From positions 41,898 to 105,897 of IMG/VR virus record IMGVR_UViG_3300005265_000001: a stretch of DNA of 64,000 nucleotides. One strand, 5' to 3'. Below the pieces are notes generated by a model. That model was not told where the DNA came from. It worked only from the letters and a program-made list of their open reading frames with translations, and did not search any database. The translations under genes were made by a program, and so were the position numbers. Shown here piece by piece: positions 3,386-54,173 of the stretch; position 1 is the stretch's first letter, and each line of letters begins with the position of its first letter. The stretch comes from a virus.

Positions 3386-5761
3386 ATGGGTAGTTATGTA
3401 TCACCGGGTGGTTACGTTAGAGAAATAGATTGGAGTCTATATGCACGGTCTTTATCTTCAACTTCGGTTGGATTTATTGGTGCATTTGATAAGGGGCCAA
3501 TAAATGAGGCAACTTTAATTACTAATGTGGATGAATTAGTAAATGTTTTTGGCACACCAAATTTAAATACTTATGCGTGGGATGCCATAAAGCAATATTT
3601 AAGAAGTGGTAGAAGGGCTTGGGTTGTAAGAGTAGCGGATGATGATGCGGCAAAAGCAAAAATTGATGTAAATTCTGAAAATCAATATGGATTTATTTTG
3701 TCGTCAAATAAAAATTTGTTTACTTTTGATCCACCTTATGCTGGAACACTAAAAGGAAGTGAGGTTGAAACATATATTATAAATTCTTATGATGCCTTAA
3801 AATTTAAGGTTGATGGGAGTGATATAGTTGCTGTTAATTTAACTTCTGGAATTAAAAGCGCACAAGCAATTGTAAATGAAATCAATTCACAAACAACTGG
3901 AATTACGGCGGTTTATAATAATGGGTATGTTTGGGTTAAATCAAACACAATTGGAAGTTCATCTTCAATTGAGGCAATGGCGGTTGATTGTGTGAGACTT
4001 GATGTTGAAAGTGTTTCAGGGGATTTTACAATTGGAGAAACAATTACAGGCGGAACGTCTGGGGCAACAGGGGTTTTATATGCCACAGATAATTCAACTT
4101 ATATGGATTTACATAGTGTAACAGGAACATTTTCGCCTTCCGAAACGGTTACAGGTGGAACATCTTCTGAAACGGCTGATATTACGGCGGCGGGTGTTCA
4201 TGAAAGAACAGATGCAAATTCAACATTGGGATTTACAACAGGAACAGTTTACACTGGAAGTGACGGAAATAATACATTAAATGTTTCAATTGATGGCGGT
4301 GGGACACAAACATTTAAAATGATTCCCGATACGGCAAATGAAACAATTTCCAAAACGGCACAACAAGTTGTAAATACTATCAATGCGTCAATTTCAGGCG
4401 GAAAGGCATATAAAACTTATGATGGAAGTGTCAAAATAGTCACAGATACGATTGGAAGTTCAGGTTCGGTTCAAGTTTTGTCTTCTTCAACGGCTGATAC
4501 TGTTTTGGGATTTGATAATAATGTTCATTCTGGAAACGATTCAGCGGCTAAATGCTTTTCAGTGGAAGCTATTAATGAAGGTGTTTGGGGGAACAAAATA
4601 TCTTTAATGATATCAACTGGAACAAGAACAAATACTTTTAGATTGGCCGTGATTTATGATTCAAAAACAGTTGAAGTTTTTAATAATCTTTCAAAGGTTC
4701 AAACTTCAAGTGACTATTTTGTTAATAAAATCAATGGAGTATCAAGATATATTACAGTCACAGATAATACAGTTGAAACAAATATGCCGGCATTTGATAC
4801 TTATACTTTGGTTGGTGGAAATTCAGGAATTTCTTCTTTGAATGATGCTGATTATATAGGTATTAATACAGGGTCCACAAAAACAGGATTACAAATTTTT
4901 AGAAATGCGGAAAAATTGCAAATTAATTTACTTGCAATTCCTGGTATTTCAAGTGCGGCTGTAATTTCTGAAATGTTATCTTTGTGTGAGGATAGAGCCG
5001 ATTGTATGGCAGTGGTTGATCCACCAAGGGGCTTGACACCACAAACAGTAGTTGATTGGCATAATGGAGAAGGAATTTGGTCTGGAAGTCATACGGCTTT
5101 TAATTCAAGTTATGGGGCTTTATATTGGCCTTGGGTTAAAGTTTATGACAGTTATAATGAAATTGAAAAATGGGTTCCACCTTCAGGGTTTGCCTTGGAT
5201 AGAATGGCATATACTGATAAAATTGCGGAAGAGTGGTATGCACCTGCTGGATTTACACGTGGACGTTTAACAAATGTTCTTGGATTGGAATATGATACGT
5301 CACAAGGTGACAGGGATTATATGTATTCCGATGGAAATGCTGTCAATCCAATTGTTGACTTTACACAAGAAGGTGTTGTAATTTGGGGTCAAAGAACACT
5401 TCAAAGAAAACCAACGGCACTTGATAGAGTTAATGTTAGACGGTTGTTACTTTATATTAGAAAAGTTGTAGCAACTACTACAAAATATTTCGTCTTTGAA
5501 CCTAATGATAAATTATCATGGGCAAGATTACGAAATGCCCTTATTCCATATTTTGATTGGTTGTATGATCCTGAAACTGGTAGAGCATTGTATTATTACA
5601 AAATTCAATGCGATAAAACAACCAACACAGATTTGGATATTAACAATGGAGTAATGAGGGTTAAAATCTTCTTACAACCGGTCAAAGCGGCTGAAATTAT
5701 TGTATCAGATTTGATTCTGTTACCAACAGGCGTGACTGCGGAAGATTATGTTATTTCATAA
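3386..5761 (+). CDS. Contractile tail sheath protein
   Basis: The 791-residue protein begins S-Y-V-S-P-G-G-Y-V-R-E-I-D and has the family N-terminus (V-G-F-I-G-A-F-D-K-G-P, N-V-D-E-L-V-N-V-F-G-T-P) followed by A-I-K-Q-Y-L-R-S-G-R-R-A-W-V-V-R-V. The C-terminal sheath domain (about 600-791) is also clear: V-N-V-R-R-L-L-L-Y-I, then D-P-E-T-G-R-A-L-Y-Y-Y, then L-Q-P-V-K-A-A-E-I-I. It polymerises around the tube and contracts to drive injection. The middle (about 200-270) contains two G-E-T-x-T-G-G-T-S modules also found in the 1448-residue protein at 25766, an insertion that makes this sheath longer than T4 gp18. An AAGGAGAG ribosome site and a phage-type promoter motif precede the gene, and a hairpin terminator follows. 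Confidence 0.95.
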   Translation: MGSYVSPGGYVREIDWSLYARSLSSTSVGFIGAFDKGPINEATLITNVDELVNVFGTPNLNTYAWDAIKQYLRSGRRAWVVRVADDDAAKAKIDVNSENQYGFILSSNKNLFTFDPPYAGTLKGSEVETYIINSYDALKFKVDGSDIVAVNLTSGIKSAQAIVNEINSQTTGITAVYNNGYVWVKSNTIGSSSSIEAMAVDCVRLDVESVSGDFTIGETITGGTSGATGVLYATDNSTYMDLHSVTGTFSPSETVTGGTSSETADITAAGVHERTDANSTLGFTTGTVYTGSDGNNTLNVSIDGGGTQTFKMIPDTANETISKTAQQVVNTINASISGGKAYKTYDGSVKIVTDTIGSSGSVQVLSSSTADTVLGFDNNVHSGNDSAAKCFSVEAINEGVWGNKISLMISTGTRTNTFRLAVIYDSKTVEVFNNLSKVQTSSDYFVNKINGVSRYITVTDNTVETNMPAFDTYTLVGGNSGISSLNDADYIGINTGSTKTGLQIFRNAEKLQINLLAIPGISSAAVISEMLSLCEDRADCMAVVDPPRGLTPQTVVDWHNGEGIWSGSHTAFNSSYGALYWPWVKVYDSYNEIEKWVPPSGFALDRMAYTDKIAEEWYAPAGFTRGRLTNVLGLEYDTSQGDRDYMYSDGNAVNPIVDFTQEGVVIWGQRTLQRKPTALDRVNVRRLLLYIRKVVATTTKYFVFEPNDKLSWARLRNALIPYFDWLYDPETGRALYYYKIQCDKTTNTDLDINNGVMRVKIFLQPVKAAEIIVSDLILLPTGVTAEDYVIS

Positions 5762-5790
5762 ATGGATGAATTAAATCCATTTTTCTCTTA
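5761..5790 (+). terminator. Rho-independent terminator after tail sheath
   Basis: The inverted repeat AATGGAT (5761-5767) / ATCCATT (5775-5781) has a 7-base loop and is followed by TTTTCTCTT. It starts in the sheath stop codon. The stem is short and AT-rich, so termination may be partial, letting some transcription continue into the tube gene. Confidence 0.6.
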
Positions 5791-5815
5791 AAAAACAAAA
5801 TGGAGGATATATTAA

Positions 5816-6295
5816 ATGTTAAGAGCAACACATTTAACTACTAATTTTGAACCTCAAAGGAAATTTGATTTTGAGATAGATTTTGGGGATGATATTTTGA
5901 GACTATCCGTTTCAAAGGCGTCTCTACCTTCGGGTTCAAATGAAGAAATTGAGTTAAAATATGGAAATGAAAGGGTATGGATTGCGGGTCAAGCTAATTG
6001 GGAAGCCTCTACGCTTGAAATTCGTGATACTCTTGATGCTGGAACGGCGGAAATTTTGTGGAATTGGCGTCGGCAAGTATATGATGAAGAAACGGGGGCA
6101 ATTGGACGGGCGGCAACTTATAAAAGAGTTGGGTCTTTGTTTTTACTTGCACCCGATGGGTCTGATTATAGAGAATGGCAGTTAATTGGATGTTGGCCTC
6201 AATCACTTAAAATGGGTGATTTGGATATGAGCGACAATAATATTGTTTTAATTGAGGCAACTATTCGATATGATAGGGCTGTCTTTTTGGGATAA
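5816..6295 (+). CDS. Tail tube protein
   Basis: This 159-residue protein directly follows the sheath, as tube genes do in contractile phages, and has the right size and pattern for the T4 gp19-like tube family. It starts with a short R-A-T-H-L-T-T-N-F-E-P strand, has F-D-F-E-I-D-F-G-D-D, then S-K-A-S-L-P-S-G-S-N-E-E-I-E-L, and ends with I-E-A-T-I-R-Y-D-R-A-V. Hexamers of it would stack into the inner tube through which DNA passes. A strong GGAGG ribosome site lies before the ATG, as expected for an abundant structural protein. Confidence 0.88.
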   Translation: MLRATHLTTNFEPQRKFDFEIDFGDDILRLSVSKASLPSGSNEEIELKYGNERVWIAGQANWEASTLEIRDTLDAGTAEILWNWRRQVYDEETGAIGRAATYKRVGSLFLLAPDGSDYREWQLIGCWPQSLKMGDLDMSDNNIVLIEATIRYDRAVFLG

Positions 6296-6335
6296 TCAAA
6301 AAATATATTTTAAATCTTTAAAAGGAGATAAATAA

Positions 6336-7070
6336 ATGAGTGAAGTTATTAATCTGCCTTCAAATGGATGTTTTGGTTACGATAGTGAAATTTCAATTAA
6401 AGAAATGAGGGTTGGGGAAGAAAAATTACTTTCTAAAATTAACAAAGTCAATTTTACAAGAACAATGATGGACATTTTTGCACGGTTAATAGATGGAAAA
6501 GACATTGATTTTGTGAAAAATATGTTAATTTCAGATGGAAATTATTTGTATATGAAAATACGGGAATATACATACACCCCAAAATATGAATTTTCTGTAA
6601 AATGTTCAAATTGTGGTGAAATTATCAAAAATGAAATTGATATTCCCGATGATTTAAACATTACAGTTGCAGAATGTGATAAAATAGAAGGTGATGGAGA
6701 AATTACATTTACACTACCCAAATCTTCCGATGAAATTACATATCGGTTTATAAGATATGCAGATCAAATTAAAATTGAAAACAATATTAGACGATTAAAA
6801 TCAAGTGACAGTGCTATTGATTATATTTTTTCAATAGCATACGCAATTAAAACAGTGAATGGCAATGAAATGAAAATTACTGAAAAACTGAAATATGTTG
6901 AAAATCTATCAAGTTATGATTACTCATATTTACAAGAATATGTCAATTCCTTAACACCCGGTGTTGACCCATTTATAAATGTAGAATGTGGTGAATGTGG
7001 CTATGAAGATAGATATTTGATGCCATTCAATGAACACTTTTTTCGTCCAAGAGTTATTCGGAAATCCTAA
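6336..7070 (+). CDS. Zinc-ribbon tail assembly / baseplate-hub-type protein
   Basis: This 244-residue protein has two Cys pairs: K-C-S-N-C-G near residue 90 and V-E-C-G-E-C-G near residue 217. Together they form a likely zinc ribbon. It sits between tail tube and tape measure. The architecture resembles the T4 baseplate-hub (gp26/gp51-like) family that accompanies tape measure genes in many myoviruses, and the position is that of the lambda gpG-type assembly chaperone. Its last 14 codons overlap the next small frame and contain a run of six T (7038-7043) where a +1 shift would fuse the two products. A good AAAGGAG ribosome site supports the ATG. Confidence 0.7.
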   Translation: MSEVINLPSNGCFGYDSEISIKEMRVGEEKLLSKINKVNFTRTMMDIFARLIDGKDIDFVKNMLISDGNYLYMKIREYTYTPKYEFSVKCSNCGEIIKNEIDIPDDLNITVAECDKIEGDGEITFTLPKSSDEITYRFIRYADQIKIENNIRRLKSSDSAIDYIFSIAYAIKTVNGNEMKITEKLKYVENLSSYDYSYLQEYVNSLTPGVDPFINVECGECGYEDRYLMPFNEHFFRPRVIRKS

Positions 7071-7227
7071 TTTAGCCGAAATACTTTCAATTCAATATTA
7101 TTTATCAAAATTCCTTCACCTTTCTATTAGTGAACAGGATATTTTAAATGTTTCAGAATTTCAATTCTTTTGGGAAAAGTTGAAAGAAGAAAATGAACAA
7201 CAGGAATATGTAGAAGATGGCTACTAA
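7030..7227 (+). CDS. Small tail assembly protein, possible frameshift extension
   Basis: The 65-codon frame runs from an ATG inside the preceding gene, +1 relative to it, to a stop 11 bases inside the tape measure gene. It has a helical, acidic C-terminus (W-E-K-L-K-E-E-N-E-Q-Q-E). No ribosome site precedes the ATG. It may instead be made as a +1 frameshift extension of the upstream protein at TTT-TTT-C, comparable in position to the gpG/gpGT pair that chaperones the tape measure. A separate coupled protein is the alternative. The function is inferred from synteny. Confidence 0.6.
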   Translation: MNTFFVQELFGNPNLAEILSIQYYLSKFLHLSISEQDILNVSEFQFFWEKLKEENEQQEYVEDGY

Positions 7228-9745
7228 AGACACAGAAAAAACAGAAGCATTAACCGGGGATTTTGAGCAAGATATTAAACGGCCAAAGGCTGTAATAAAA
7301 GACATTCTTTCAATGCTTGAATTACTTTCCCAACGGGGGGGTAAAACAGGCAAATCTTTTGAGGGAATGTATAATATTATAAAGGACGTTTCATCATTAA
7401 AATTAAGTAAAGAACAAATTGAAAAGTTGACAGGTGTTTTATATGGATATGGTCAGACAATGGCTGACATATCTAATAAAGGTGAAACGTGGAACACTAT
7501 TAATAATGCTTTGGCATATACAATGAACATGCGGTTACGTGGTGTTCTTGAAAATTTGATGAGGGATTTTACGGAAGTTAGAAAAGAAGGTTCCAAAACA
7601 AATGCTGTAATTAAGGCCATTATTGGAAACATTGTAAAATATGGTAGAATGTATTTAGGTATTCATACATTCAGAAAGTCTTTTTTAATGACGGCACATT
7701 TACAAGATGAGGCAGTTGAACTTACTGAATTAACTGATAAATACAAAAATGTATTTGAAGCACGTCGGGCACTTATCAAATTTTTTAATCAAATTCCTAT
7801 TTATGCCGAAAATGCTGTGAAGGTTTTGGGGGAATTGTGGAAAAGTGGGTTTACAGGTGGAAAAGAGAAGGCGGAAGAATTTGCAATGGGAATTGCCAAA
7901 ATATTTCAAGCGGTCAAGTATTTAAATAATGAAGTTTTGGTTAAAGGTGCCGTTGGGTTTGAAAAAGTGGGCCTTTCAATCCATGCTTATCAAACCATAG
8001 TGGGAAACTTAATTCAATTAAAACGCCATGCACAAGCCACAACTGAACAAATCAATAGAGCTTTACAGGATGCAGTGGAAAATCATGCAACTTTAGCGTC
8101 AATAGCAAAAGAACAACATAAAAATTTAGTAGAAGTTGTAAGTGATTATAATAGAGCGTCAATTGCGGCCAATAAACTTGGAAAGGGTGGTAATGAATTA
8201 TTTCAACAAATGTTCAAAGCATATAGAACTAAAGATTATGCTGTTTTAATGGATTTATTTGGGCCAAAATTGGGAAAAATGGTCACTGTTACAATAGATC
8301 AAATGAGAAAAGGTGGAAAAGGATTTACTGAAACTTTTGATGCAATGTTAAAAACAATAATGAGAAGTGGAAATTTTAATGAGGCACTTCTTAAACACTT
8401 AGGTTTTGATGTTTCAACGGAACAAATTAAAAGATTTAGATTGCAATATGATAGATTTATGAAATCCGCAAAACATATTGATTTTGAGGCGGGAGCTGAG
8501 CATTTTGAAGAAGCTGTTCATAAATATGAAAAAACATGGGAAGCATTTAATAAAAATTTTGTAAATCAATTTAAAGGTGCATTTTTAACAGTTGGAACAT
8601 ATTTACTTGATTTTTTTAACAAACATAAAGAAACTATTAATAAATTTTTACATACAATTTCCGGGTTTATCAAAAATCACCCCATTGTTACAATGTTAGC
8701 GGGTGGGGCTTTAACATTTGGGTCCGGAAGTTTGATTAAAACATTATTTAGTAAGATTTTTGGGGGATTTTTTGGAAAAGGTGTGTCTGATAATACCAAA
8801 AAAACCGCCACAAACACAGGTCGTATTTATAGACTTTTATTAAGAGGTGGTATGTTTGAAGGCGGGGCAATTACAAAATTAAGAGGGGCAATTTTATCAA
8901 GATTGGGAATTGATAGTTTCAAATCAATGTTTACGGCAAGTTTGCCCGCTATGTTTTCAAATTTATTTGGTGGTGGAATGATAGGAAGTATTGCTGGAAT
9001 AGTTGGTCCTATTGTAATGGTTATATTGGGATCAATTGCAGTTTATACAATTGTTTCCAAAATTTTCAAATTTTTTGGATGGGATAAAAAAATAGAAGAG
9101 GCAAGTGCAAAATTTTTCAATGATGTTGAAAGGGAACGTAAAAAAATTACAGGATTTTATGAAAAAGAAAGAGTGGCAAAACAAGAAAAAGTTTATCTTG
9201 ATGTTCATAAAGGGGATATAATCAAGTGGAAAAATGAATTAGTAAAGGCCGGATTGATATCAAGTGGCGAAAAATATGGGCTTGGAGAAAGTTTATCAAA
9301 AATTTGGCAAGCAAAACAAATGGGATTAAATGGAACAGAAAATTTAACAAATAAAGAAATGGTTATAATTGCACGCAAAATGGAAAATGAAAGATGGGGC
9401 GGAAAAACATATTCGGCTTGGGATAGGGGTATATTAACACTTTATCAACTTGAATCATATTTACCATTTTTGAAAAAATATAGTCAAAAACGGGCCGCTG
9501 AATATATAGAAAGAGAAAAACTTGTCACAACAGAAGGACGTGGACCTGTAACTTTAAATGATGTTAGACAAGTAATTGAAATCCCAGAAGCCAAAGAATT
9601 ATCAAGTTCCGCACAAAATTTACAAATATCTTCTGATAATTTGAATAAAGCAACAGATAAATTATTAGCATTGGTAAATGGTATTCCAACATTAAACCAT
9701 TCAACTCAAAACCAAAGTCTTGCGAGATCATGGGGGGTTCCTTAA
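7217..9745 (+). CDS. Tail tape measure protein
   Basis: At 842 residues this is the longest helical protein of the tail module and follows the two small assembly proteins, the classic tape-measure position. It is Lys/Glu-rich and helical throughout, with hydrophobic segments near 488-510 (V-T-M-L-A-G-G-A-L-T-F-G) and 588-614 (I-A-G-I-V-G-P-I-V-M-V-I-L-G). Such segments in tape measures help cross the inner membrane. It sets tail length and is ejected ahead of the DNA. The start overlaps the preceding frame by 11 bases. The C-terminus ends shortly before the baseplate genes. Confidence 0.85.
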   Translation: MATKDTEKTEALTGDFEQDIKRPKAVIKDILSMLELLSQRGGKTGKSFEGMYNIIKDVSSLKLSKEQIEKLTGVLYGYGQTMADISNKGETWNTINNALAYTMNMRLRGVLENLMRDFTEVRKEGSKTNAVIKAIIGNIVKYGRMYLGIHTFRKSFLMTAHLQDEAVELTELTDKYKNVFEARRALIKFFNQIPIYAENAVKVLGELWKSGFTGGKEKAEEFAMGIAKIFQAVKYLNNEVLVKGAVGFEKVGLSIHAYQTIVGNLIQLKRHAQATTEQINRALQDAVENHATLASIAKEQHKNLVEVVSDYNRASIAANKLGKGGNELFQQMFKAYRTKDYAVLMDLFGPKLGKMVTVTIDQMRKGGKGFTETFDAMLKTIMRSGNFNEALLKHLGFDVSTEQIKRFRLQYDRFMKSAKHIDFEAGAEHFEEAVHKYEKTWEAFNKNFVNQFKGAFLTVGTYLLDFFNKHKETINKFLHTISGFIKNHPIVTMLAGGALTFGSGSLIKTLFSKIFGGFFGKGVSDNTKKTATNTGRIYRLLLRGGMFEGGAITKLRGAILSRLGIDSFKSMFTASLPAMFSNLFGGGMIGSIAGIVGPIVMVILGSIAVYTIVSKIFKFFGWDKKIEEASAKFFNDVERERKKITGFYEKERVAKQEKVYLDVHKGDIIKWKNELVKAGLISSGEKYGLGESLSKIWQAKQMGLNGTENLTNKEMVIIARKMENERWGGKTYSAWDRGILTLYQLESYLPFLKKYSQKRAAEYIEREKLVTTEGRGPVTLNDVRQVIEIPEAKELSSSAQNLQISSDNLNKATDKLLALVNGIPTLNHSTQNQSLARSWGVP

Positions 9746-44126: not shown

Positions 44127-44133
44127 AATTGAA

Positions 44134-44160
44134 TTGGGGGATTTTCCCCCAACTTAATTT
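44134..44160 (+). terminator. Rho-independent terminator
   Basis: TTGGGGG (44134-44140) pairs with CCCCCAA (44146-44152) around a five-base loop ATTTT, followed by CTTAATTTT. This GC-rich stem stands out in an AT-rich genome and ends the 43938 gene transcript. Confidence 0.8.
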
Positions 44161-44502: not shown

Positions 44503-45063
44503 ATGAAAAAGAAGATAATCGTTTTTGGCGGTCATACAACCAAAAAACCCGGTTGTTTCAGAAATGGGATAAGTGAAGTTGCCTATAATTGGCAAATGGC
44601 AAAATTGGTTGTAAATGGTGTTGATAGTGAAGATGTTATTTTAGGTCCTGAAATTGATTTACACGAAAGAATTAAATGGATAAATGAGAACTATCCAAAA
44701 GCTAAATTAGTAATGGAAATTCATTTAAATTGTTCTGAAAATGAAAAAGCGCACGGAACAGAAGTTTTATACAATGCTATTTGGAATTTAAAATCCCGTA
44801 AATATGCGAAATTATTTTTAAAAAACATTTGTATCAAATTATGGGGGACAAAAAAATCTGATAATTGCAGAGGAACTAAAACATGTCGGACATTAAAAAG
44901 AACACTTTCATTTTTAAAACACACAAAGCCTCCGGCAATTATTACTGAAAGTTTATTTATTTCAAATAATAAAGACAGTTATTATTTGGTAAAAGGTCTT
45001 GGATTTGAAAATATAGTTGAAGCGCATATTGATACAATTAAACAAATTTTGGATGGTGAATAA
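44503..45063 (+). CDS. N-acetylmuramoyl-L-alanine amidase endolysin (Amidase_3 type)
   Basis: The 186-residue protein has the zinc-binding and catalytic residues of the Amidase_3 fold: H11 in V-F-G-G-H-T, E25 in I-S-E-V-A-Y, H74 in M-E-I-H-L-N-C and E149 in I-I-T-E-S-L-F-I-S. It cleaves the amide bond between muramic acid and L-alanine in peptidoglycan. There is no signal peptide or wall-binding domain, so it needs a holin or similar for access. It is a minimal single-domain enzyme, as in many Gram-negative phages. The gene lies among fibre genes rather than in a compact lysis cassette. Confidence 0.88.
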   Translation: MKKKIIVFGGHTTKKPGCFRNGISEVAYNWQMAKLVVNGVDSEDVILGPEIDLHERIKWINENYPKAKLVMEIHLNCSENEKAHGTEVLYNAIWNLKSRKYAKLFLKNICIKLWGTKKSDNCRGTKTCRTLKRTLSFLKHTKPPAIITESLFISNNKDSYYLVKGLGFENIVEAHIDTIKQILDGE

Positions 45064-45065
45064 AA

Positions 45066-45860
45066 GTGAAATACACTTTTTATGAAACAGTTGGAGATGT
45101 TTATGGAAATGCGGTATCAAATGCAGATGTGTATGTGTATTTATCGGGAACTACAACAGCGGCAAAGGTTTATATAGATGGATCAGCGGTGACAACAGCA
45201 CCGCAAACTTCAACAGATAGTTTTGGATTTTATACTTTTCAAGTTGATGATGATGATTATAGTTATACCCAAACTTTTGATATCAAGGTTGCTAAGAGTG
45301 GGTATGTAGATAAATGGATAAAAAATATCAATATAATTGAAGGTGGTAAATTTGTTAGATTGGATGGAAATTCTTTACCAGAGGCCGATAACACCTATGA
45401 TGTGGGGGATTCAACACATCGTTTCAAGAATATTTATGCGGTTAATTTCAACGGAACGGCGTCAAGTGCTACTTATGCTGATATTGCGGAAAAATATACA
45501 ATTGAAGATATTGAAAATGTGAAGGTCGGAGATGTAATTATTATTTCAGATAAAGATGAATTTGATGGAAAAGTTTCAGATGAAATTGCTTCAAATAAAG
45601 TAATTGGTGTTGTTAGTGAAAATCCGGCATTTAAAATGAACTCGAATTTGGAAAATGGAAAATATATTGCTTTGCGTGGTAGGGTAAAATGTCGAATCTT
45701 TGGTGTTGTATCAAAGGGTGAAGAACTTGTATCTTATGTTAATGGTTGCGCTATTGGTATAAATAATGTTAAAAATTTCCTGGAATCCTATCAACCAGTG
45801 GGAAAATCATTGGAAAATAAGCGGACTTCCGAAGTTGGATTGATTGAAATAATTGTGTAA
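45066..45860 (+). CDS. Fibre protein with N-terminal attachment domain and peptidase_G2-like tip
   Basis: Start is GTG 45066, three bases after the amidase stop. Residues 1-80 form a beta-sandwich domain shared with the N-terminus of the protein at 54887 (F-Y-E-x-V, G-N-A, V-Y-I/V-D-G, P-Q-T). Then comes N-T-Y-D-V-G-D-S-T-H-R-F-K-N-I-Y, a known joint of phage fibre tips. Next is A-D-I-A-E-K-Y with a following V-x-V-G-D-V-I-I-I, a C-terminal chaperone or tip domain. It is likely a short tail fibre. The 80-residue shared N-terminus may bind the same attachment site in both fibres. Confidence 0.75.
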   Translation: MKYTFYETVGDVYGNAVSNADVYVYLSGTTTAAKVYIDGSAVTTAPQTSTDSFGFYTFQVDDDDYSYTQTFDIKVAKSGYVDKWIKNINIIEGGKFVRLDGNSLPEADNTYDVGDSTHRFKNIYAVNFNGTASSATYADIAEKYTIEDIENVKVGDVIIISDKDEFDGKVSDEIASNKVIGVVSENPAFKMNSNLENGKYIALRGRVKCRIFGVVSKGEELVSYVNGCAIGINNVKNFLESYQPVGKSLENKRTSEVGLIEIIV

Positions 45861-45883: not shown

Positions 45884-46357
45884 ATGAATAAATCAATTGA
45901 TGAATTAATTCTTTTAATAACTACAAGTCGATATTTATCACGAAAACATTATGAGCGTTTTTTGGAAATGTTTGAAGATATCAAAAATGATAATGTTCAA
46001 ACAAAATACAAAGACTTGATTATAGATTGTTATGAAAAAGACAGGGAAATGGTATCACTTTTAGTCAATATGGAGAGATATTTTGCTCAAAATATTGAGT
46101 ATTATGAAAATGATGGAAAGATTGGAATAAAAGATTTGATTGGATATAGAAATGTTATAGATAGAAAGGTGGGGGATGAGCTTTTTGAAAAATATAAAGA
46201 CACAGAGGAAATAAAAGAAATCGTAAAGGGGTTTAAGAATCCTTTTTATACTATGAAAGCCATTTTTCTTGTATTTTTGGCTTTTCAAAATTCCGGTTCA
46301 CCATATTCCAAAGGTGACAAATTTGAACTTACAAAATTATTTAGTGAAGATGAATGA
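45884..46357 (+). CDS. Helical protein, first gene of radical SAM operon
   Basis: I do not recognise this 157-residue helical, Lys/Glu-rich protein. Its stop overlaps the ATG of the first radical SAM gene (ATGA), so translation is coupled and a shared role is likely. It has no signal peptide, one mildly hydrophobic stretch (M-K-A-I-F-L-V-F-L-A-F) near residue 130 and no cysteine pairs apart from one Cys. It could be a substrate-binding partner of the maturases, or a fibre chaperone. A GAGGAAAAT ribosome site precedes it. Confidence 0.6.
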   Translation: MNKSIDELILLITTSRYLSRKHYERFLEMFEDIKNDNVQTKYKDLIIDCYEKDREMVSLLVNMERYFAQNIEYYENDGKIGIKDLIGYRNVIDRKVGDELFEKYKDTEEIKEIVKGFKNPFYTMKAIFLVFLAFQNSGSPYSKGDKFELTKLFSEDE

Positions 46358-47556
46358 AACGAGATTTTTTTCAGAAAAAAGTATTAAATCGTATTCACTC
46401 GATAGAGCTTGTAATAAGCGAAAAGTGTCAAAATGCTTGCACTTATTGTTACAGAAATCGGTTGCATAAAAAATCAAACATAATAACAGTAAATCCCAAA
46501 ACAATTGAAATTTTTATTAAAAATCTATATGAATTATTTCCCGAATTAACAAAAATCGAAAGATTTGAACTATTTGGGGGAGAACCTTTTTTAGATTACA
46601 GCCATATATTTTCAATCTTTGAAATACTTAATAAATTTGATAATATTAAGAAAGTTGTAGTGCCCACCAATGGTAGATTACTACTATCTTTGAATAAAAT
46701 TGATAGAGAAAAATTATTAAATTCTTGGAATTTTGAGGTTGGAATATCAATGTCTATTGATGGAATAAACGGGCAAAGAAATTTATCAAATTTTGGTAGA
46801 ATGTTGGGATATGAGGAAATTGAAGAGAATGATGAATTTTTTAAGAATTTGAGAGATTTACAAAAAGAAATTGGTTTTGGCGTTCATCCAATGCTATATT
46901 TCGGAAATAATCAAAATTGGGTAGAGCAAGTTAAAAAATGGGTGGAACATGGATTTATACCATATTTATTAGAAATTAGACATCCTCTAAGCAATGATGA
47001 AATACTTGATTCAGTGAAAAATCTTGTATTTGTGGCTAATTACATTTTTAAAAATGTTGATAAAAAACATCATAAAAGATTCAATACAATTTTCCCCATA
47101 AAAGTTCCAAGGGGGCTTGGTTGTTCAGCGTTGACAACTATCACTATTATGCCCAATGGGGATATTCCCTTTTGCCATAGAGTTATAGAACCGCCTTATG
47201 TAATGGGGAATGTTTTGACAAAACAAATTGATTACTCTAAATTTGTAAATTATAAAACATTCGATCACCGAAACAATCCTGAATGTGTGGGTTGCCCTAT
47301 TAGAAAAATATGTTCAGGGCAATGTCTTGGGGCGGCGTATGAATATTATAGAGGCTATCCTTGGTTGAATATTCCTTCAATTTGTCAATATAATTTATTG
47401 AAATATTATGTTTTTTCAGAATTTTTTGAAATATGGAACAATTTTTTAATTGAAAATAGAGTAAATAAAAAAGATATATTGAAAGCATTGAAACGCAATA
47501 ATACAATAAAAGAAAAAATGGGAAAAATGATGAAGGAAATAAAATGTGGGATTTAA
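46354..47556 (+). CDS. Radical SAM/SPASM maturase 1
   Basis: The 400-residue enzyme has the radical SAM cluster motif C25-x3-C29-x2-C32 (S-E-K-C-Q-N-A-C-T-Y-C-Y-R). It also has the S-adenosylmethionine-binding G-G-E-P segment (E-L-F-G-G-E-P-F-L-D). The C-terminal SPASM domain has cysteines at 257 (G-L-G-C-S-A-L-T), 311, 314, 320 and 324 (E-C-V-G-C-P-I-R-K-I-C-S-G-Q-C), holding auxiliary iron-sulfur clusters. Such enzymes act on ribosomally made peptides, installing carbon-carbon, thioether or epimerised bonds. It is followed by a second enzyme of the same kind and by two repeat-peptide genes. Its end overlaps the next gene by 13 bases. Confidence 0.92.
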   Translation: MKRDFFQKKVLNRIHSIELVISEKCQNACTYCYRNRLHKKSNIITVNPKTIEIFIKNLYELFPELTKIERFELFGGEPFLDYSHIFSIFEILNKFDNIKKVVVPTNGRLLLSLNKIDREKLLNSWNFEVGISMSIDGINGQRNLSNFGRMLGYEEIEENDEFFKNLRDLQKEIGFGVHPMLYFGNNQNWVEQVKKWVEHGFIPYLLEIRHPLSNDEILDSVKNLVFVANYIFKNVDKKHHKRFNTIFPIKVPRGLGCSALTTITIMPNGDIPFCHRVIEPPYVMGNVLTKQIDYSKFVNYKTFDHRNNPECVGCPIRKICSGQCLGAAYEYYRGYPWLNIPSICQYNLLKYYVFSEFFEIWNNFLIENRVNKKDILKALKRNNTIKEKMGKMMKEIKCGI

Positions 47557-49070
47557 ACATATATGGATTTAGCACAATAGGACCCGCAACACCCAAAGAA
47601 TATAGTATTAATTTGGGCGATTGGGAAATTATTGATATACCTTTTGATGTGGATAAAGAAGAGGCAAAAAGATATATTTCCAATTTTTTGGATAAAATAG
47701 TTGCCATTGAAATGCCCACTTCATTACAATGTAATTTGAGGTGTAAATATTGTTATATTACTAATCCGAAATATAAAAATACGGTGGTAAAATCAAGTCA
47801 AATAGAAAAAATTATCAATAATGTTAAGAATTTGCTTCCAAACTTCAAAGAAAATTCTAAGGAAAAGATATATTTTACACCTTGGGGGGCGGAACCCCTT
47901 ATCAATATTAATACAATTGAGGTAATTTATAACAAAATTAAAGAGTTCAATTATAAAAATGTCACAATGAATTTTTCCACAAATGCTACGATATTAAACG
48001 AAAAAGTAAAAGATATTCTTTATAAATTGATTGATAAGGATATAATTAAAGATATTCAAGTTTCTATTGATGGTCCACCCGATATTCAAAACTATTATAG
48101 GCCATTTTTAAATGATTCTCCAAGTTTTGATTCTGTTGTTGAATTTGTAAAATGGATAAAAGAAATAGAAAGAGAGAAAAAGAAAAAAATTTTGCATTTT
48201 TGTTCTACCATTTATTTAAGAGACGAAAATTTTATTAATGATTGGTATAAGGCAACAGATTTTTTCTCAGATAAAGATAATGAACTATTTTTTACACAGG
48301 TTATGCCGTCACGTATGAGTGGTGAGGATTTAACAAATGATGAAATGGTGGAAATTTTTGTTGAAGCCATGAGACAAAGCACGGATTTACTTACTAAAAA
48401 GGCTAAAAACCAAAATATTGGGTTAGTTGATTTTTATACAAATAAATTGTTTGGTATTCCTTCGGCGTGTAGTAGAACAGCATATCCTTATTGTTCCGCT
48501 TTAAATACTCAAATTGCAATTGATTTGGATGGATCATTATATCCATGTCACGGTCCTATAACAAATCCAATAAACGAAAAACCGTGGGTATGGTTTGGAA
48601 ACATTTTTGAAAAAAAGATATCATATAGAAGACTAAAAAGGGCAATTTTTTCATTATACGGTGGAACAATTTTTAAAGGGAAATGCAATGATTGTATTAT
48701 TTATCAATTAACTCGATCCCCTATTTGTTGGAGTTGTTATTCTCATAATTTGGCAGTTTCAAATGAACCTTTAACAGATAGTATTTATAGATGTTTTGCC
48801 TTTAATAAATCATTTAAATATTGGTTGATTCAAGCACTTGTATCTATTGAAAATTCTTATGTTTTTCCATTATTAACTAAAAAAATGATAGAGTTTTTGG
48901 GTATTGAAAAAATTGAATCTAATGTAAAAAATAAGATATCATATAAAACTTCAAGTAAATATACATACGGTTATGATGGGGTTTTGGTAAATGCCTGTAA
49001 AAAAATGGAAAAAAATATTAGTTTTGGTGGATATGTTTCTGAATGGTGGCGAATGGATGATTTTAATTAA
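47544..49070 (+). CDS. Radical SAM/SPASM maturase 2
   Basis: The 508-residue enzyme has C63-N-L-R-C67-K-Y-C70 as the cluster motif, an F-T-P-W-G-A-E-P segment in place of the usual G-G-E-P, and S-I-D-G-P-P-D. The long C-terminal SPASM-type region has many Cys (S-A-C-S-R-T, Y-P-Y-C-S-A, L-Y-P-C-H-G, K-C-N-D-C, I-C-W-S-C). It differs clearly from maturase 1, so two distinct reactions or a heterodimer are likely. Pairs of radical SAM maturases next to a repeat protein occur in the His-Xaa-Ser systems; the enzymes here are reminiscent in organisation. It overlaps maturase 1 and precedes the repeat peptides by 25 bases. Confidence 0.92.
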   Translation: MWDLNIYGFSTIGPATPKEYSINLGDWEIIDIPFDVDKEEAKRYISNFLDKIVAIEMPTSLQCNLRCKYCYITNPKYKNTVVKSSQIEKIINNVKNLLPNFKENSKEKIYFTPWGAEPLININTIEVIYNKIKEFNYKNVTMNFSTNATILNEKVKDILYKLIDKDIIKDIQVSIDGPPDIQNYYRPFLNDSPSFDSVVEFVKWIKEIEREKKKKILHFCSTIYLRDENFINDWYKATDFFSDKDNELFFTQVMPSRMSGEDLTNDEMVEIFVEAMRQSTDLLTKKAKNQNIGLVDFYTNKLFGIPSACSRTAYPYCSALNTQIAIDLDGSLYPCHGPITNPINEKPWVWFGNIFEKKISYRRLKRAIFSLYGGTIFKGKCNDCIIYQLTRSPICWSCYSHNLAVSNEPLTDSIYRCFAFNKSFKYWLIQALVSIENSYVFPLLTKKMIEFLGIEKIESNVKNKISYKTSSKYTYGYDGVLVNACKKMEKNISFGGYVSEWWRMDDFN

Positions 49071-49095
49071 ATTATTATTTTGAGGTGTTTGTAGA

Positions 49096-49545
49096 ATGGG
49101 TTATACGTGGACGGATGAGACTTTAGATTCCGATGATGATATTAGAACGTTTCATGTTTCTGAATTAAGAACAAATCTTAATAATGAACGTAACAGAAGA
49201 AGTATGACTCAATTTAGTTGGACAGATGATCCATTGGATTCAGATACTAAGATAAAAACCGTTCACATAAATGAATTACGAAATGGTTGTGATACAACAC
49301 CTGTAAATACAGGGTGTTCTGCGGAAAAAGGAAGCTACTATTCCGATAATGATTCAACTGTATATTCAGATAAAGATGCTACGATTCATTCTGATGAAAA
49401 TACTGGAATAAATTCCGGAAGAGATGTTACGGTGTATAACGGGAGAGATGGGAGCTATCATAATGGATTTGATAGTGACCAATGCGGAACAGATTATGGG
49501 GGCGATGATAGTGATAAAAATAGCGGGATTCATAATGTGGGGTAA
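49096..49545 (+). CDS. Repeat peptide A, putative radical SAM substrate
   Basis: The 149-residue protein has two copies of a leader-like motif: residues 4-28 (T-W-T-D-E-T-L ... F-H-V-S-E-L-R) and 41-63 (S-W-T-D-D-P-L ... V-H-I-N-E-L-R). Residues 81-128 form six octapeptides (Y-Y-S-D-N-D-S-T, V-Y-S-D-K-D-A-T, I-H-S-D-E-N-T-G, I-N-S-G-R-D-V-T, V-Y-N-G-R-D-G-S, Y-H-N-G-F-D-S-D). Cysteines at 65, 74 and 130 bracket the array. The low-complexity acidic/Ser/Gly composition is unlike a globular enzyme. A conserved front part and variable repeat part fit a precursor peptide. A GAGGTG ribosome site precedes it. Alternatively it could be a small fibre or adhesin. Confidence 0.75.
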   Translation: MGYTWTDETLDSDDDIRTFHVSELRTNLNNERNRRSMTQFSWTDDPLDSDTKIKTVHINELRNGCDTTPVNTGCSAEKGSYYSDNDSTVYSDKDATIHSDENTGINSGRDVTVYNGRDGSYHNGFDSDQCGTDYGGDDSDKNSGIHNVG

Positions 49546-49548
49546 AAA

Positions 49549-49890
49549 ATGAGTTGGACAGATGACCCTCTTACAGCGGAACTTACAAAAGTAAAAACAA
49601 TTCATATAATTGAATTAAGAAATGCTATTGATGATTTAAGTGAGGGTTGTGTTTCTTATAATAGTTCTTATGATTCGGATAAAGACGCCACAGTTGATTC
49701 AAGTAAAAATAATACGGTAGATTCTACACAATATTCTGGGGCCGATTCATCTCAAAATAGTTCGGCGGATTCCACAAAAGATAATTCAGTAGATGGCACA
49801 AACTGGAACACAGATTATTATGCTAATCATGGAACTCACCACAATTCATGGTGTTCTGGAAACTACACAGATAGGTGTATAGGATATTAA
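49549..49890 (+). CDS. Repeat peptide B, putative radical SAM substrate
   Basis: This 113-residue protein has one copy of the same leader-like motif (S-W-T-D-D-P-L at 2-8, T-I-H-I-I-E-L-R-N-A-I at 17-27). An octapeptide array follows at 41-88 (Y-D-S-D-K-D-A-T, V-D-S-S-K-N-N-T, V-D-S-T-Q-Y-S-G, A-D-S-S-Q-N-S-S, A-D-S-T-K-D-N-S, V-D-G-T-N-W-N-T). Cysteines lie at 34, 102 and 110. It starts 3 bases after peptide A, so both are made from the same message. It lacks the first leader copy of A. A strong terminator follows at once, closing the radical SAM operon. Confidence 0.75.
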   Translation: MSWTDDPLTAELTKVKTIHIIELRNAIDDLSEGCVSYNSSYDSDKDATVDSSKNNTVDSTQYSGADSSQNSSADSTKDNSVDGTNWNTDYYANHGTHHNSWCSGNYTDRCIGY

Positions 49891-49918: not shown

Positions 49919-49941
49919 GGGGATGTCAATCCCCTTTTTTT
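49919..49941 (+). terminator. Rho-independent terminator ending radical SAM operon
   Basis: GGGGAT (49919-49924) pairs with ATCCCC (49929-49934) around a four-base loop, then seven T. It is a clean terminator immediately upstream of a promoter motif at 49947. Confidence 0.9.
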
Positions 49942-49986: not shown

Positions 49987-52900
49987 ATGCCCGATATTTA
50001 TCCAAGTTCTCTAAATTCAAATACAAGTTTTTCTTTTAATTTGGGCGGAGATTTTTTAAAATATAGAAGCCTTACAATAGAGAGTAAGGATGTTGAAATT
50101 GATATTGATCCAATTATTTCAAACGTTGAATTAACATATTCTATTGAAGTATCTGATTTTTATTTGGGTTTAAGTTCTGAAATATCATTTAATTTTGTGG
50201 TTGGATTTTCTAATATAAATCCCACTTTAACAAGTTATTCTAATCTGTTTTCAGATTTGACATTAAAAGATTTTCAACTTAATTCGTATTCCAATTTATC
50301 ATATTTACTTGATGGAGATTTTTTAAAATATCGAAGTCTTGTTTTACGGGCATATAATGTAATAATCGAAGATAACACTGAAATAGAATCAAATGTAAGT
50401 GTTGATTTTGATGTAAATATAGAAAATGAAACAGATATTTTTTCTACTAATACAAACATAAATTTTCAAAATATTGATATCATTTTTCAAGCCGAAATAT
50501 TAAATTCAATAAGTCAAATAATCACTGAAATTGAGTTAATAAAATCAGTTGATTTACTTTCTACGAATACACTTTTTAGATTTGATGGAACTGCTACTGG
50601 AAATGTGGTAATTTCGGACTTATTACAGACTCAGGCTGATTTACTATATTCTAAAATAGTAACTGGAAATGCAATTGCAAGTGAAACACTTGATTCCAAT
50701 TCCAAATTATTTTATTCTGGACTTATTAACAATAGTGTTGTAATAAATGCCACAAGTTTAGGCACAAATGTAATTTTAGATTTTGTAGAATATACTGAAA
50801 AAGTTGCAAAAACCTTAAATAGTCAAACTCATTTATCTGTTTCAAGTCCTGTTATTGATAAAGTATTAAGAAATTTTATTATCCAAACCAATTCAAGCAT
50901 AGTATTTTCTTTTGTAAAAGGCATTTCAATTTCAAATAATATTTTTGAATCTGATTCTCAATTATCGTTTAATTATGCTATTGGTAAGGTTGTCTCAGAT
51001 TTTCAATTAAATGTTGATTCTGATTTGTCATATTCCGGCGTGGCTACCGATATAGTAATTGATTCCGAAAAACTTGATGCGGTTTCGGAACTTAATTATG
51101 GTGGTGTTGTAACTGGAAATGTCATAAGCAACTTTTTGTTAGAGGTATCAAGTGATTTAATTTATAGTAATTTTGTAATTGATACAATAGTAAATACCAT
51201 TCCTTTAATTTCAAATGTCAATTTGTTGTCTTCTTTTGTGATTGGAACGTCAATTACAGCAAATTCGATGGGATTAGATACTGAAATTGACTTTAATTAT
51301 GTGGTTGGAACGGTTGTAAGAAATTTTAATTTAGATTCGGTATCTGAAATATCATTTTCAAGTGTTTTTCGTGATACTATAATAGAAGTTCAGGAATTAA
51401 ATTCCAATACTTCTTTACAATTTGATTCAGTAATTATTGGAAATGTTGTTTCTAATTTTCTATTTGAAACGTTAAGTGAAATAGATTTTGGTCTATTTAT
51501 TGACAATGTTGTAAGCAATTTTAATTTAGATTCAACTTCTTATTTAGATTTTTCTAATCTTTTGATTGATACTGCCATAACACCTAATATATTAAATTCA
51601 TTGGTTTCAAATGTCTTTGATTATGCGGTTGGAAAGGTTTTAAAGGATTGGTTATTACAAACTGTTTCAGATATTAACTTTCATGTTGTGGTTGGTAGTG
51701 TCGTTTCAAATTTTACGTTTGGCACTAATACTTTCTTAACATTTTTGAAAACTGTAATTGGAAATGTTGTTACAGTAGATAGTTTAAATGTTGATCTTGA
51801 TATTGATTTTAATATTGTAAAGGGGCATGTTTTAAGAAGTGGTGTTTTATCTACCAATTCCAAACTGAATTTTGAGAAGATTGTAGATGTTAGCATACCT
51901 CAAAACTCCATTGAAACAAATTGTAATATTGGTTTTGATGGTGTTGTAACTGGTATAGCAATTCAAAATAATGTTTTTGATGGGTTTGTAAATATTTTTT
52001 ATGATTCTATTAGGGTTGGAACGGTTGTAAGAAATTTTGATTTAATATCAAATTCAAATATTTTGTTTTCAAATTTAATAGTAGATGTAATAATATCAAA
52101 AAATAATGAGATATTAAGCAATTCTGATTTATTGTATCAATCGATAGTTACTGGAAATGTGTTAATTGTAAACGAAATTGAAAGCAATTCTACTATTAAT
52201 TTTCAAAATATTGCAATTGGAAAAGTAATACATTCAGATGTTACTAATGTTTATACTGATATAAATTCAACTTTTGTAATTGGAAATGTTGTTAAAGATT
52301 TTGATTTATTGAGTGATACTACAATTTCTTTTGAAAAAATAATCATTGATACTGTAATTGACAATAATATTCAAACAACACAAACCGAAATTAACTTTGG
52401 AAATATCGAAATATCTGTTTTCGATATTGTTTTAAATTCGGCGGCTTCTTTAATATCTATTCCTGAAATTGAAGTAGATGGAAACATAATAGAATCGGCA
52501 ACAAGTCAATCTTTTCAAAACATACAAATTGAGTTTGAAATAAGTCAAATTGATTCTTTTACAAATATATTGTTCGATTTTTATATTGATAGAATTATAA
52601 AAAATAATTTCTTAGACACTGTTTCGGAAATTTCAAATGTTTTTTATGTAGATAAGATATTTACAGATAATAAATTAGAGACAAACGGTGAAATAACTTT
52701 TGGATTCTATGTTGATGTTGTATTAGATAACAATGTAATTACCTCAAATTCACAATTAAATAACACCTATGAATTACAATTTATTCCAAAGGCACTTGAA
52801 ACAGAAGGATCAATTTCATTTAATTTTATCATAGATATTTATTTGTATTTAGATAATTTGGAAAGTTTTGTTAATTTATATATTGACATTATTCAAAAAG

Positions 52901-53361
52901 ACTTTTTATTGTGGATTTATTCATTTCTTTCATATACAGGGCGGCTTGATTTTACTGAATTATGTAATATTTTCAATGTTTACAAAGAGGACAGGAAATT
53001 TTCAGTTGAAAGAGAAGATAGGACCTATCACATTTATGCTGAAACATATTCACAAGAAATTGAAATTCAAAACATTTTTAGAATCCAAAAAGAAAACAGA
53101 ACCTACCATATCTATGCTGAAACATATTCACAAGAAATTGAAATTCAAAACATTTTTAGAATTGAAAGAGAAGATAGGACCTATCACATTTATGCCGATA
53201 CAATTTCCCAAGAAATTGAATTGATTGATATTTTCAAAATACCAAAAGAAAATAGGGTATTTAAGATTTTTTCGGAGAATAGAGTATTTGAAATATCCAA
53301 AATTGATAGAATTTTTAATGTATTCAAACGGACTAAAGTTTATAAATTATTATGCAAATGA
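49987..53361 (+). CDS. Giant repeat protein of the baseplate-fibre repeat family
   Basis: The 1124-residue protein is built of some forty short repeats of roughly 22 residues, with the pattern L-x-S-x-S-x-L-x-F-x-x-x-V-I-G-x-V-V-x-x-F. The same repeat family occurs in the N-terminal extensions of the two gp25 fusions and the gpI-like protein. The C-terminal 140 residues carry tandem units R-E-D-R-T-Y-H-I-Y-A-E-T with E-I-E-I-Q-N-I-F-R-I, a motif known from other phage tail and head proteins. It likely forms a long flexible virion fibre. It has its own promoter motif. Confidence 0.7.
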   Translation: MPDIYPSSLNSNTSFSFNLGGDFLKYRSLTIESKDVEIDIDPIISNVELTYSIEVSDFYLGLSSEISFNFVVGFSNINPTLTSYSNLFSDLTLKDFQLNSYSNLSYLLDGDFLKYRSLVLRAYNVIIEDNTEIESNVSVDFDVNIENETDIFSTNTNINFQNIDIIFQAEILNSISQIITEIELIKSVDLLSTNTLFRFDGTATGNVVISDLLQTQADLLYSKIVTGNAIASETLDSNSKLFYSGLINNSVVINATSLGTNVILDFVEYTEKVAKTLNSQTHLSVSSPVIDKVLRNFIIQTNSSIVFSFVKGISISNNIFESDSQLSFNYAIGKVVSDFQLNVDSDLSYSGVATDIVIDSEKLDAVSELNYGGVVTGNVISNFLLEVSSDLIYSNFVIDTIVNTIPLISNVNLLSSFVIGTSITANSMGLDTEIDFNYVVGTVVRNFNLDSVSEISFSSVFRDTIIEVQELNSNTSLQFDSVIIGNVVSNFLFETLSEIDFGLFIDNVVSNFNLDSTSYLDFSNLLIDTAITPNILNSLVSNVFDYAVGKVLKDWLLQTVSDINFHVVVGSVVSNFTFGTNTFLTFLKTVIGNVVTVDSLNVDLDIDFNIVKGHVLRSGVLSTNSKLNFEKIVDVSIPQNSIETNCNIGFDGVVTGIAIQNNVFDGFVNIFYDSIRVGTVVRNFDLISNSNILFSNLIVDVIISKNNEILSNSDLLYQSIVTGNVLIVNEIESNSTINFQNIAIGKVIHSDVTNVYTDINSTFVIGNVVKDFDLLSDTTISFEKIIIDTVIDNNIQTTQTEINFGNIEISVFDIVLNSAASLISIPEIEVDGNIIESATSQSFQNIQIEFEISQIDSFTNILFDFYIDRIIKNNFLDTVSEISNVFYVDKIFTDNKLETNGEITFGFYVDVVLDNNVITSNSQLNNTYELQFIPKALETEGSISFNFIIDIYLYLDNLESFVNLYIDIIQKDFLLWIYSFLSYTGRLDFTELCNIFNVYKEDRKFSVEREDRTYHIYAETYSQEIEIQNIFRIQKENRTYHIYAETYSQEIEIQNIFRIEREDRTYHIYADTISQEIELIDIFKIPKENRVFKIFSENRVFEISKIDRIFNVFKRTKVYKLLCK
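53010..53210 (+). repeat. 78-base tandem repeat in C-terminal coding region
   Basis: Units containing GCTGAAACATATTCACAAG recur 78 bases apart and encode 26-residue repeats. Two copies are near identical over about 45 bases, and a third is diverged, all within the 1124-residue gene. Confidence 0.8.
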
Positions 53362-54173
53362 ACAGAAAAACACTAAAATTTTTGATTATTTTAATACTAT
53401 TTTTGGTTGGATGCGCTCACAAAAAACCACATGATAGACCTTCCAACTATGCCCATAGGTATATAGATGGTGTGAATTTATTTGTTTTTGAATCCGAAAT
53501 AAATGATGTTGATTTATTGATTGCAAAACATATTAGAGCGGTTCGATTACCAATTAGATATGAATTTCAAACTAAAACGTGTCAATATATTGATAAATTT
53601 TTAAGTCATGGTGTTACAGTTTTATTAACTTTTGATTTAACTGAAAATGATAGAAAATTCCAAAAAGCAATTGATTTTTATTTAAAACGATACGGAAACA
53701 GAGTTTTTTATGAGATTTTTAATGAGCCTTGGGCATATAATGGAAATCCTGGTTACAAAAAATTTGATTCAACTGAACGAATTTTTGTGGAACAAACAAG
53801 ATGGATTGATTATATTCATTCAAAATGTCCTAATTGTAAGACATTAAACGGTGGAATTGCTGATTTTTGTAATGATATTGAAATGGATTTATTGTTAAAA
53901 TATGTGGAAAGAGGCCACCAAGATATTTTTTCAATCCATATTTACGGATATTGTGAAAATGCTTTGATATCCAAAATAAACATGATGAAAAAAACAGGCA
54001 AAAAAATATGGATAACTGAAATCGGAACAACAGGAAACAAAGAAAATTACATAAATACATATTTTCCCAACATTGTAAAAATAGTTCAACCCGAAAAATT
54101 GATTTGGTTTGATTATAATTCTGGAAATTTTGGTATAGAACATACTGATATTTTCAATAAACTTTTTGAATAG
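53358..54173 (+). CDS. Lipoprotein glycoside hydrolase (GH-A clan, GH5/GH39-like)
   Basis: The product from ATG 53358 (ATG 53352 is also possible) starts with a signal peptide and a perfect lipobox L-V-G-C (Cys19). The mature part is a TIM-barrel glycosidase. Catalytic acid/base E123 lies in Y-E-I-F-N-E-P-W, and nucleophile E221 lies in I-W-I-T-E-I-G; the spacing of about 100 residues fits clan GH-A. The R-L-P-I-R strand near residue 60 also fits the barrel. It is a lipid-anchored enzyme that could act on cell-surface or capsule polysaccharide from the host envelope. It overlaps the previous gene by a few bases. Confidence 0.78.
   Translation: MNRKTLKFLIILILFLVGCAHKKPHDRPSNYAHRYIDGVNLFVFESEINDVDLLIAKHIRAVRLPIRYEFQTKTCQYIDKFLSHGVTVLLTFDLTENDRKFQKAIDFYLKRYGNRVFYEIFNEPWAYNGNPGYKKFDSTERIFVEQTRWIDYIHSKCPNCKTLNGGIADFCNDIEMDLLLKYVERGHQDIFSIHIYGYCENALISKINMMKKTGKKIWITEIGTTGNKENYINTYFPNIVKIVQPEKLIWFDYNSGNFGIEHTDIFNKLFE

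Follow-up and report, generated by a model that had tools for sequence, protein, structure and literature searches.

The DNA window analysed here is a stretch of 64,000 nucleotides, positions 41898-105897 of virus record IMGVR_UViG_3300005265_000001 (record length 105,897 bases). At 45884-49890 of the window five tightly packed genes form a cassette which probably constitutes a phage-encoded protein-maturation module, acting on tail-associated proteins made of four-residue repeats (tetrads). The genes encode, in order, a small helical protein, two enzymes of the radical S-adenosylmethionine (rSAM)/SPASM type (rSAM1 and rSAM2), and two repeat proteins (A and B). In the following sections we discuss the gene products, their relatives in other phages and their possible role.

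Enzymes and repeat proteins of the cassette

A preliminary description of this DNA, made from the sequence alone, had proposed a single terminator-closed unit, and the open reading frames (ORFs) together with a hairpin and T-run at 49919-49934 bear this out. The helical protein and rSAM1 genes overlap by 4 bases, and those of rSAM1 and rSAM2 by 13; gaps of 25 and 3 bases separate rSAM2 from A and A from B. The genes are listed in Table 1.

Both enzymes exceed the cut-off of the Pfam Radical_SAM model (37.8 bits for rSAM1 and 45.6 for rSAM2; cut-off 29.5). The NCBIfam SPASM model TIGR04085 is passed by rSAM1 (44.1 bits; cut-off 27), and the Pfam SPASM model is narrowly missed by both (20.1 and 19.7 bits; cut-off 21.5). 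Each enzyme possesses a CxxxCxxC motif (residues 25-32 of rSAM1 and 63-70 of rSAM2) and seven further C-terminal Cys, the spacing of which is canonical for SPASM in rSAM1 and variant in rSAM2. On these sequence features we assign both to the radical SAM/SPASM peptide maturases at superfamily level, and they are indeed two different enzymes, as first described. The best full-protein NCBIfam match of both is the PapB-type maturase NF047865 (64.2 and 110.8 bits; cut-off 340). The CXXX-repeat maturase model TIGR04115 gives 33.3 and 62.3 bits (cut-off 350), and the HxsB model TIGR03978 gives 46.0 and 50.0 (cut-off 370). Among solved structures, 5wgg is nearest to the profiles of both enzymes (E 9e-19 and 4e-15); we take it to be the thioether-forming SCIFF maturase CteB; for rSAM1, 8vpo is also among the nearest.

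Proteins A and B gave no family match in Pfam, NCBIfam or phage-protein (phrog) profile searches. They share an N-terminal, leader-like motif (W-x-D/E...GD-x-I...E-L/I-R-x-N-I-D), which had been noticed at the outset; B has one copy of it and A has two. Sequences from the window and from two of the other loci retrieved in this work (L009 and L024) served as seeds for the motif profile, whose scores there are not independent. Independent evidence for the motif is provided by a plain pattern search and by a further locus, L046, whose repeat proteins were picked out by periodicity and only afterwards seen to begin with it.

The basic repeat of both proteins is four residues long, with class-periodicity z values of 9.1 (A) and 10.8 (B) that were reached in 0 of 1000 shuffles. 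Autocorrelation of BLOSUM scores peaks at lag 8 (z 5.4 and 6.7), and the visible octads are alternating pairs of tetrads. The regular repeat reported earlier is thus real, but the octad was rejected as its basic unit in favour of the tetrad on class periodicity. The consensus is [D/N/Y/H/C]-S-[G/T/D/S]-x. Across A, B and two L046 proteins the grammar, in percent, is [D33 N24 Y18 C10 H6]-[S49 G14 N10]-[G25 T23 D22 S17]-x, with V or I common at position 4 only and no fixed Val. In other phage loci the CXXX repeats have the composition C-[S42 T17 G9]-[G58 S13 N6 T6]-[T28 G27 S20], and S or G at positions 2-3 is common to both kinds. The repeats had also been described as bracketed by Cys, which is roughly so: there are Cys residues before the core, but others lie inside it, at tetrad position 1. 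When the phase is set without regard to Cys, position 1 holds 17 of the 19 Cys in eight Cys-poor cores (chance approximately 6e-9, Cys being treated as independent), and the window-type repeat accordingly resembles the CXXX layout with few Cys. The tetrad signal is found in A and B only among the 191 ORFs of the window, and 150 kb of DNA from phiKZ, T4 and SPO1 contained no ORF with it.

Recurrence of the cassette and of its theme in other phages

Direct single-protein scans of viral contigs and annotated phages revealed no relatives, and alignment-based scans were needed. One of these, against viral contigs, located an rSAM2 relative in L009 (E 4e-117), where the order is two repeat proteins, a small helical gene, rSAM1, a glycosyltransferase, rSAM2 and two further repeat proteins, all surrounded by tail-fibre-type genes. 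Two more loci, L046 and L048, were picked out by a tetrad-periodicity scan of all ORFs in the retrieved loci and are counted as one lineage. With TGA read as Trp, the order in L046 is tail fibre, two repeat proteins, rSAM2-like, rSAM1-like, a 158-aa gene and a second tail fibre. In the alignment the rSAM1 relatives are 46% identical in L009 and 31% in L046; for the L046 enzyme a separate comparison gives 28% identity (E 1e-26), and the seven-Cys layout is the same; the match of rSAM2 to its L046 relative is weaker (pair E 5e-13 over the radical SAM half, profile E 1e-13). A final scan with the rSAM1 trio added no further close member.

Tetrad-repeat proteins lie directly beside the enzyme relatives in both of these lineages (four in L009, two in L046/L048). 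For six proteins the tetrad class-periodicity z is 9 to 24, and all cassette-type repeat proteins begin with a recognisable form of the shared motif. In each of the three lineages the cassette has tail-fibre-like genes on its flanks, in agreement with the location first reported. The preliminary description had held that enzymes found elsewhere without repeat peptides nearby would speak against it, and the outcome favours it. It had also proposed a search for the five-gene order in other phages; the genes recur beside tail-fibre genes in L009 and L046/L048, in rearranged order. A small gene is similarly placed in L046 (158 aa) and in L009, its similarity to the helical protein being undetectable in one and marginal (E 0.004) in the other; these are possible counterparts, assigned by position and size. 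For the window protein AlphaFold2 (AF2) predicts helices at low confidence (predicted local distance difference test, pLDDT, 51).

Some features of these contigs deserve mention. The helical gene of L009 (2162-2732) seems to be interrupted by a frameshift, which may be genuine or an assembly artefact, and the gene between rSAM1 and rSAM2 (L009:3959-4978) encodes a glycosyltransferase of group 1. The genes of the L046 and L048 contigs require TGA to be translated as an amino acid, here taken as Trp, in order to be open. Of the three codes compared for L046, the standard one and that with TAG as Gln break its genes, and TGA as Trp opens all of the cassette genes. Two scans of bacterial genomes gave no match, the patterns having been poor in the first and Asn having been fixed in H-x-N-E-L-R in the second, so that absence of the system from hosts or prophages should not be concluded from them; a plasmid scan returned a single weak partial match.

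Beyond these three lineages, there is a strong linkage between the rSAM/SPASM genes of phages and Cys-repeat proteins. A same-strand Cys-repeat ORF is present in 35 of 77 loci chosen only for rSAM similarity, and an antisense one in 1 of 77. Conversely, 28 of 34 loci chosen only by a CTCNCNY-type DNA repeat possess a same-strand rSAM gene, mostly less than 400 bp away; four of the six without one have little DNA or lie at the edge of the stretch. The pattern WTDDPL...HIxELR alone retrieved six loci, and an rSAM gene comes next in all four whose sequence reaches the next gene (the L004 contig via L018). The leader-like motif starts (CT)n-tailed proteins beside an rSAM gene in L003, L006, L007, L010-L014, L017, L018 and L020. 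In L024/L027 it precedes CxxxC repeats, and one copy (a weak profile match, E 0.3-1) is found in the C-terminal part of a 516-aa RCC1-type protein. Antisense tetrad matches, for instance in L063 and L064, are shadows of opposite-strand Cys repeats and were ignored.

This theme, too, is linked to tail-fibre genes. Four Cys-repeat proteins carry, after the repeat and over the Pfam cut-off, the fibre chaperone domain Peptidase_S74, and in L007 a GpJ-type tip protein is encoded a few genes away from the locus. The cultured phages phiEaH2 and SEGD1 have an rSAM gene pair, with Cys-repeat ORFs 1-2 kb upstream, beside an annotated virion structural protein. The L024 enzyme nearly reaches the cut-off of TIGR04115 (340.1 bits; cut-off 350).

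Several of these loci hold additional genes. Immediately after the SPASM gene of the (CT)n group, in L007 (2362-3714) as well as in L003 and L006, comes a radical SAM gene that has a B12-binding-like region; a small gene and a protein with an Lcl_C domain follow. L024 contains two further rSAM genes (5067-7594), the C-terminal end of the second matching the CXXX repeat peptide maturase model TIGR04119. The Cys-repeat ORFs of the jumbo phages phiEaH2 and SEGD1 (L088:3123-3922 and L089:3193-3901) overlap genes annotated as hypothetical.

Gene neighbourhood of the cassette

A tape measure protein and baseplate wedge proteins are encoded upstream of the cassette, by which the phage is recognised as a tailed phage, probably with a contractile tail. 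The tail-fibre-like protein directly 5′ of the cassette shares 38% identity over 171 aa with L046 P0006, the gene of which lies two genes from the L046 rSAM genes.

Table 1. Positions of the cassette genes, their motifs and the adjacent upstream genes in the window
Feature	Position	Strand	Remarks
N-acetylmuramoyl-L-alanine amidase	44503-45063		precedes tail-fibre-like gene and cassette
Tail-fibre-like protein, Peptidase_G2-like C-terminus	45066-45860	+	directly 5′ of cassette; phrog_19602 tail fiber protein match 9.6e-16
Small helical protein, possible partner	45884-46357	+	no family
rSAM1, radical SAM/SPASM peptide-maturase-like enzyme	46354-47556	+	
rSAM1 CxxxCxxC radical SAM cluster motif	46426-46449	+	Cys 25, 29, 32 invariant in three lineages
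rSAM1 seven-Cys SPASM region	47122-47385	+	Cys 257, 274, 311, 314, 320, 324, 344 invariant in three lineages
rSAM2, second, different radical SAM/SPASM enzyme	47544-49070	+	
rSAM2 CxxxCxxC radical SAM cluster motif	47730-47753	+	Cys 63, 67, 70 invariant with L009
rSAM2 seven-Cys SPASM-type region, variant spacing	48492-48794	+	Cys 317, 335, 381, 384, 395, 398, 417 invariant with L009
Repeat protein A, putative substrate	49096-49545	+	
Leader-like motif, A copy 1	49099-49188	+	profile hidden Markov model (HMM) match, seed member
Leader-like motif, A copy 2	49210-49299	+	profile HMM match, seed member
A tetrad repeat region (YSDN DSTV YSDK DATI HSDE ...)	49327-49542	+	period-4 z 9.1; scan log10 p -7.1
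Repeat protein B, putative substrate	49549-49890	+	
Leader-like motif of B	49549-49638	+	profile HMM match, seed member
B tetrad repeat region (DSDK DATV DSSK NNTV DSTQ YSGA ...)	49660-49887	+	period-4 z 10.8; scan log10 p -9.9
Intrinsic terminator closing the unit	49919-49934	+	hairpin GGGGATGTCAATCCCC then TTTTTTT (seven T)

The next gene after the cassette (49987-53361) encodes an 1124-aa protein without family, containing many imperfect repeats of the type V-I-G-N-V-V-S-N-F-x-L, which is perhaps a fibre shaft. Also among the tail genes, at 53352-54173, is a glycosyl-hydrolase-like protein (Glyco_hydro_cc, 27.1 bits; cut-off 21), possibly a receptor- or wall-degrading part. A hairpin at 44132-44154, with terminator-like tails on both strands, is located 5′ of the amidase gene.

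Proposed function and comparison with known systems

We propose that rSAM1 and rSAM2 recognise the short N-terminal motif of A and B and repeatedly functionalise their tetrads, with the residue at position 1 (D/N/Y/H/C) as the probable centre of the change. A and B would then become part of the tail-fibre or baseplate apparatus, or be attached to it, and their covalently changed repeats might serve there as a stiff or stable rod, or as an exposed surface for contact with the host. Motif binding, repeat modification and a place for the products in the tail together appear to be the most economical reading of the gene linkage and the enzyme class. That A and B are the substrates we regard as likely, and that their products are part of the virion as fairly probable. 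For one change per repeat the chances seem even, and for a cross-link, rather than epimerisation, hydroxylation or some other change, they are less than even. The register that Cys shares with D/N/Y/H suggests tetrad position 1 as the centre of the chemistry, and thioether formation is the natural guess for the Cys-rich relatives because of the enzyme models that they match.

A number of observations weigh against this proposal. The matching enzyme-family models score far under their cut-offs, the Cys-poor version occurs in three lineages only (the window, L009 and L046/L048), and the helical protein is without detectable sequence conservation between lineages. Among the 77 rSAM-selected loci 42 are without a Cys repeat, and many of these resemble other rSAM types. 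The locus counts include near-identical contigs, because of which the Fisher value for the rSAM/Cys-repeat linkage (9e-12) is overstated. AF2 shows the repeat region of protein B as disordered (pLDDT 41, from six aligned rows), as an unmodified chain could also look. Furthermore, position 1 of protein B is often Asp, which matches no rSAM cross-link chemistry that we can name, and we know of no chemistry that suits every position-1 residue of the window tetrads.

Two rSAM/SPASM genes beside small leader-plus-core proteins, with RiPP (ribosomally synthesized and post-translationally modified peptide) maturases as the closest enzyme models, are the normal layout of a true secreted RiPP, in which A and B would be precursors of bacteriocin-like or signalling cargo, the leader being cut off and the core exported. 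We consider this improbable, for no peptidase, exporter or immunity gene occurs among the genes tested and the cassettes lie between tail-fibre genes in three lineages. Moreover, motif plus core form the C-terminal end of the 516-aa RCC1-type protein in L024, and other repeat proteins bear S74 after the repeat. The preliminary description spoke of a RiPP-like maturation cassette in the tail region, with products that might be virion parts or secreted effectors; the combination of maturase and substrate is supported, but the five genes and the neighbours tested include no exporter or leader peptidase for a secreted product, and a virion part is the better option in view of the fibre-like flanks and of S74 on related Cys-repeat proteins.

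It is also conceivable, if unlikely, that the enzymes have a different target, be it a further tail protein, a protein of the host or, as a metabolic aid, a small molecule, and that the repeat proteins are ordinary tail linkers sharing the operon. Metabolic or auxiliary roles have been assigned to phage rSAM genes (PMC2853527, PMC7150976), and the 1124-aa repetitive protein could be a target as well, but the repeat proteins and rSAM genes retrieve each other from both search directions, and tetrad or Cys repeats are absent from control phage DNA. A solenoid binding metal or polysaccharide would be regular without modification, leaving the rSAM pair to introduce a change or two at other sites, for example thioethers at the few Cys. 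The frequency of D or N at position 1 would suit this, as would Cys that are sparse and in register and the proximity of both enzymes to 5wgg, presumably the thioether-forming CteB; nevertheless, it does not account for the way in which the entire repeat grammar goes along with the enzymes in Cys-rich and Cys-poor versions alike, and we give it little chance.

The maturation of tail proteins might extend well beyond the window. Many tailed phages may apply dedicated radical-SAM chemistry to their own tail-fibre or tail-tip proteins, turning a Cys-rich or Cys-poor tetrad segment into a covalently locked rod or receptor-contact surface, with D/N/Y/H tetrads needing a chemistry other than Cys thioethers; we put the chances of this at slightly under even. 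If a large share of phage rSAM genes do mature virion proteins, their place among tail genes would be explained and an unexplained class of genes made testable. There would be a natural route to hard, covalently reinforced protein rods, and the Cys-poor tetrads would represent a new substrate class for SPASM enzymes. The host-recognition clusters of pelagimyophages, which are reported to differ by added radical SAM cassettes (PMC7029224), agree with the tail-maturation picture. No description of rSAM-modified phage tail proteins or fibres was found in the open-access papers searched.

By analogy, the cassette appears to work like an rSAM/SPASM repeat-peptide maturation system, and the cut-offs tested place it outside the His-Xaa-Ser, PapB and CXXX families. 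The RiPP label suits its layout, with an adjacent precursor gene for leader and core, but not a secreted product, no leader peptidase or exporter having been found among the five genes or the tested neighbours. The His-Xaa-Ser system (HxsA/B/C), offered earlier as the nearest analogy, likewise combines two rSAM enzymes with a repeat protein; the analogy is not supported by the HxsB scores, and tandem H-x-S repeats are absent from A and B, neither of which matches an NCBIfam model. The PapB-type ranthipeptide maturases are the best full-protein match, under cut-off, but A and B are without Cys-x3-Asp repeats. The SCIFF maturase CteB, nearest in solved structure, serves a six-Cys peptide, unlike the Cys-poor repeats of the window. 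Tail fibres with Peptidase_S74 or Peptidase_G2 chaperone domains are neighbours of the window cassette, and in other phages S74 is found on the Cys-repeat protein itself. In the CXXX-repeat system (TIGR04115, TIGR04119) an rSAM/SPASM enzyme also stands beside a tetrapeptide-repeat protein with S/G-rich positions 2-3, and A and B share the four-residue repeat. In contrast to a Cys in nearly every tetrad, however, the tetrads of the window and L046 proteins have Cys at approximately 10% of their first positions and mainly D/N/Y/H; the window also has two different enzymes, a helical gene and a tail-fibre setting, and lies below the TIGR04115 cut-off. The proposed mode of action resembles that of the bacterial TvgA/TvgB pair, where one rSAM enzyme, TvgB, acts repeatedly on the tetrapeptide repeat TVGG (PMC9062424); there the product is cyclopropylglycine formed from Val, a residue that is not fixed in the window repeat.

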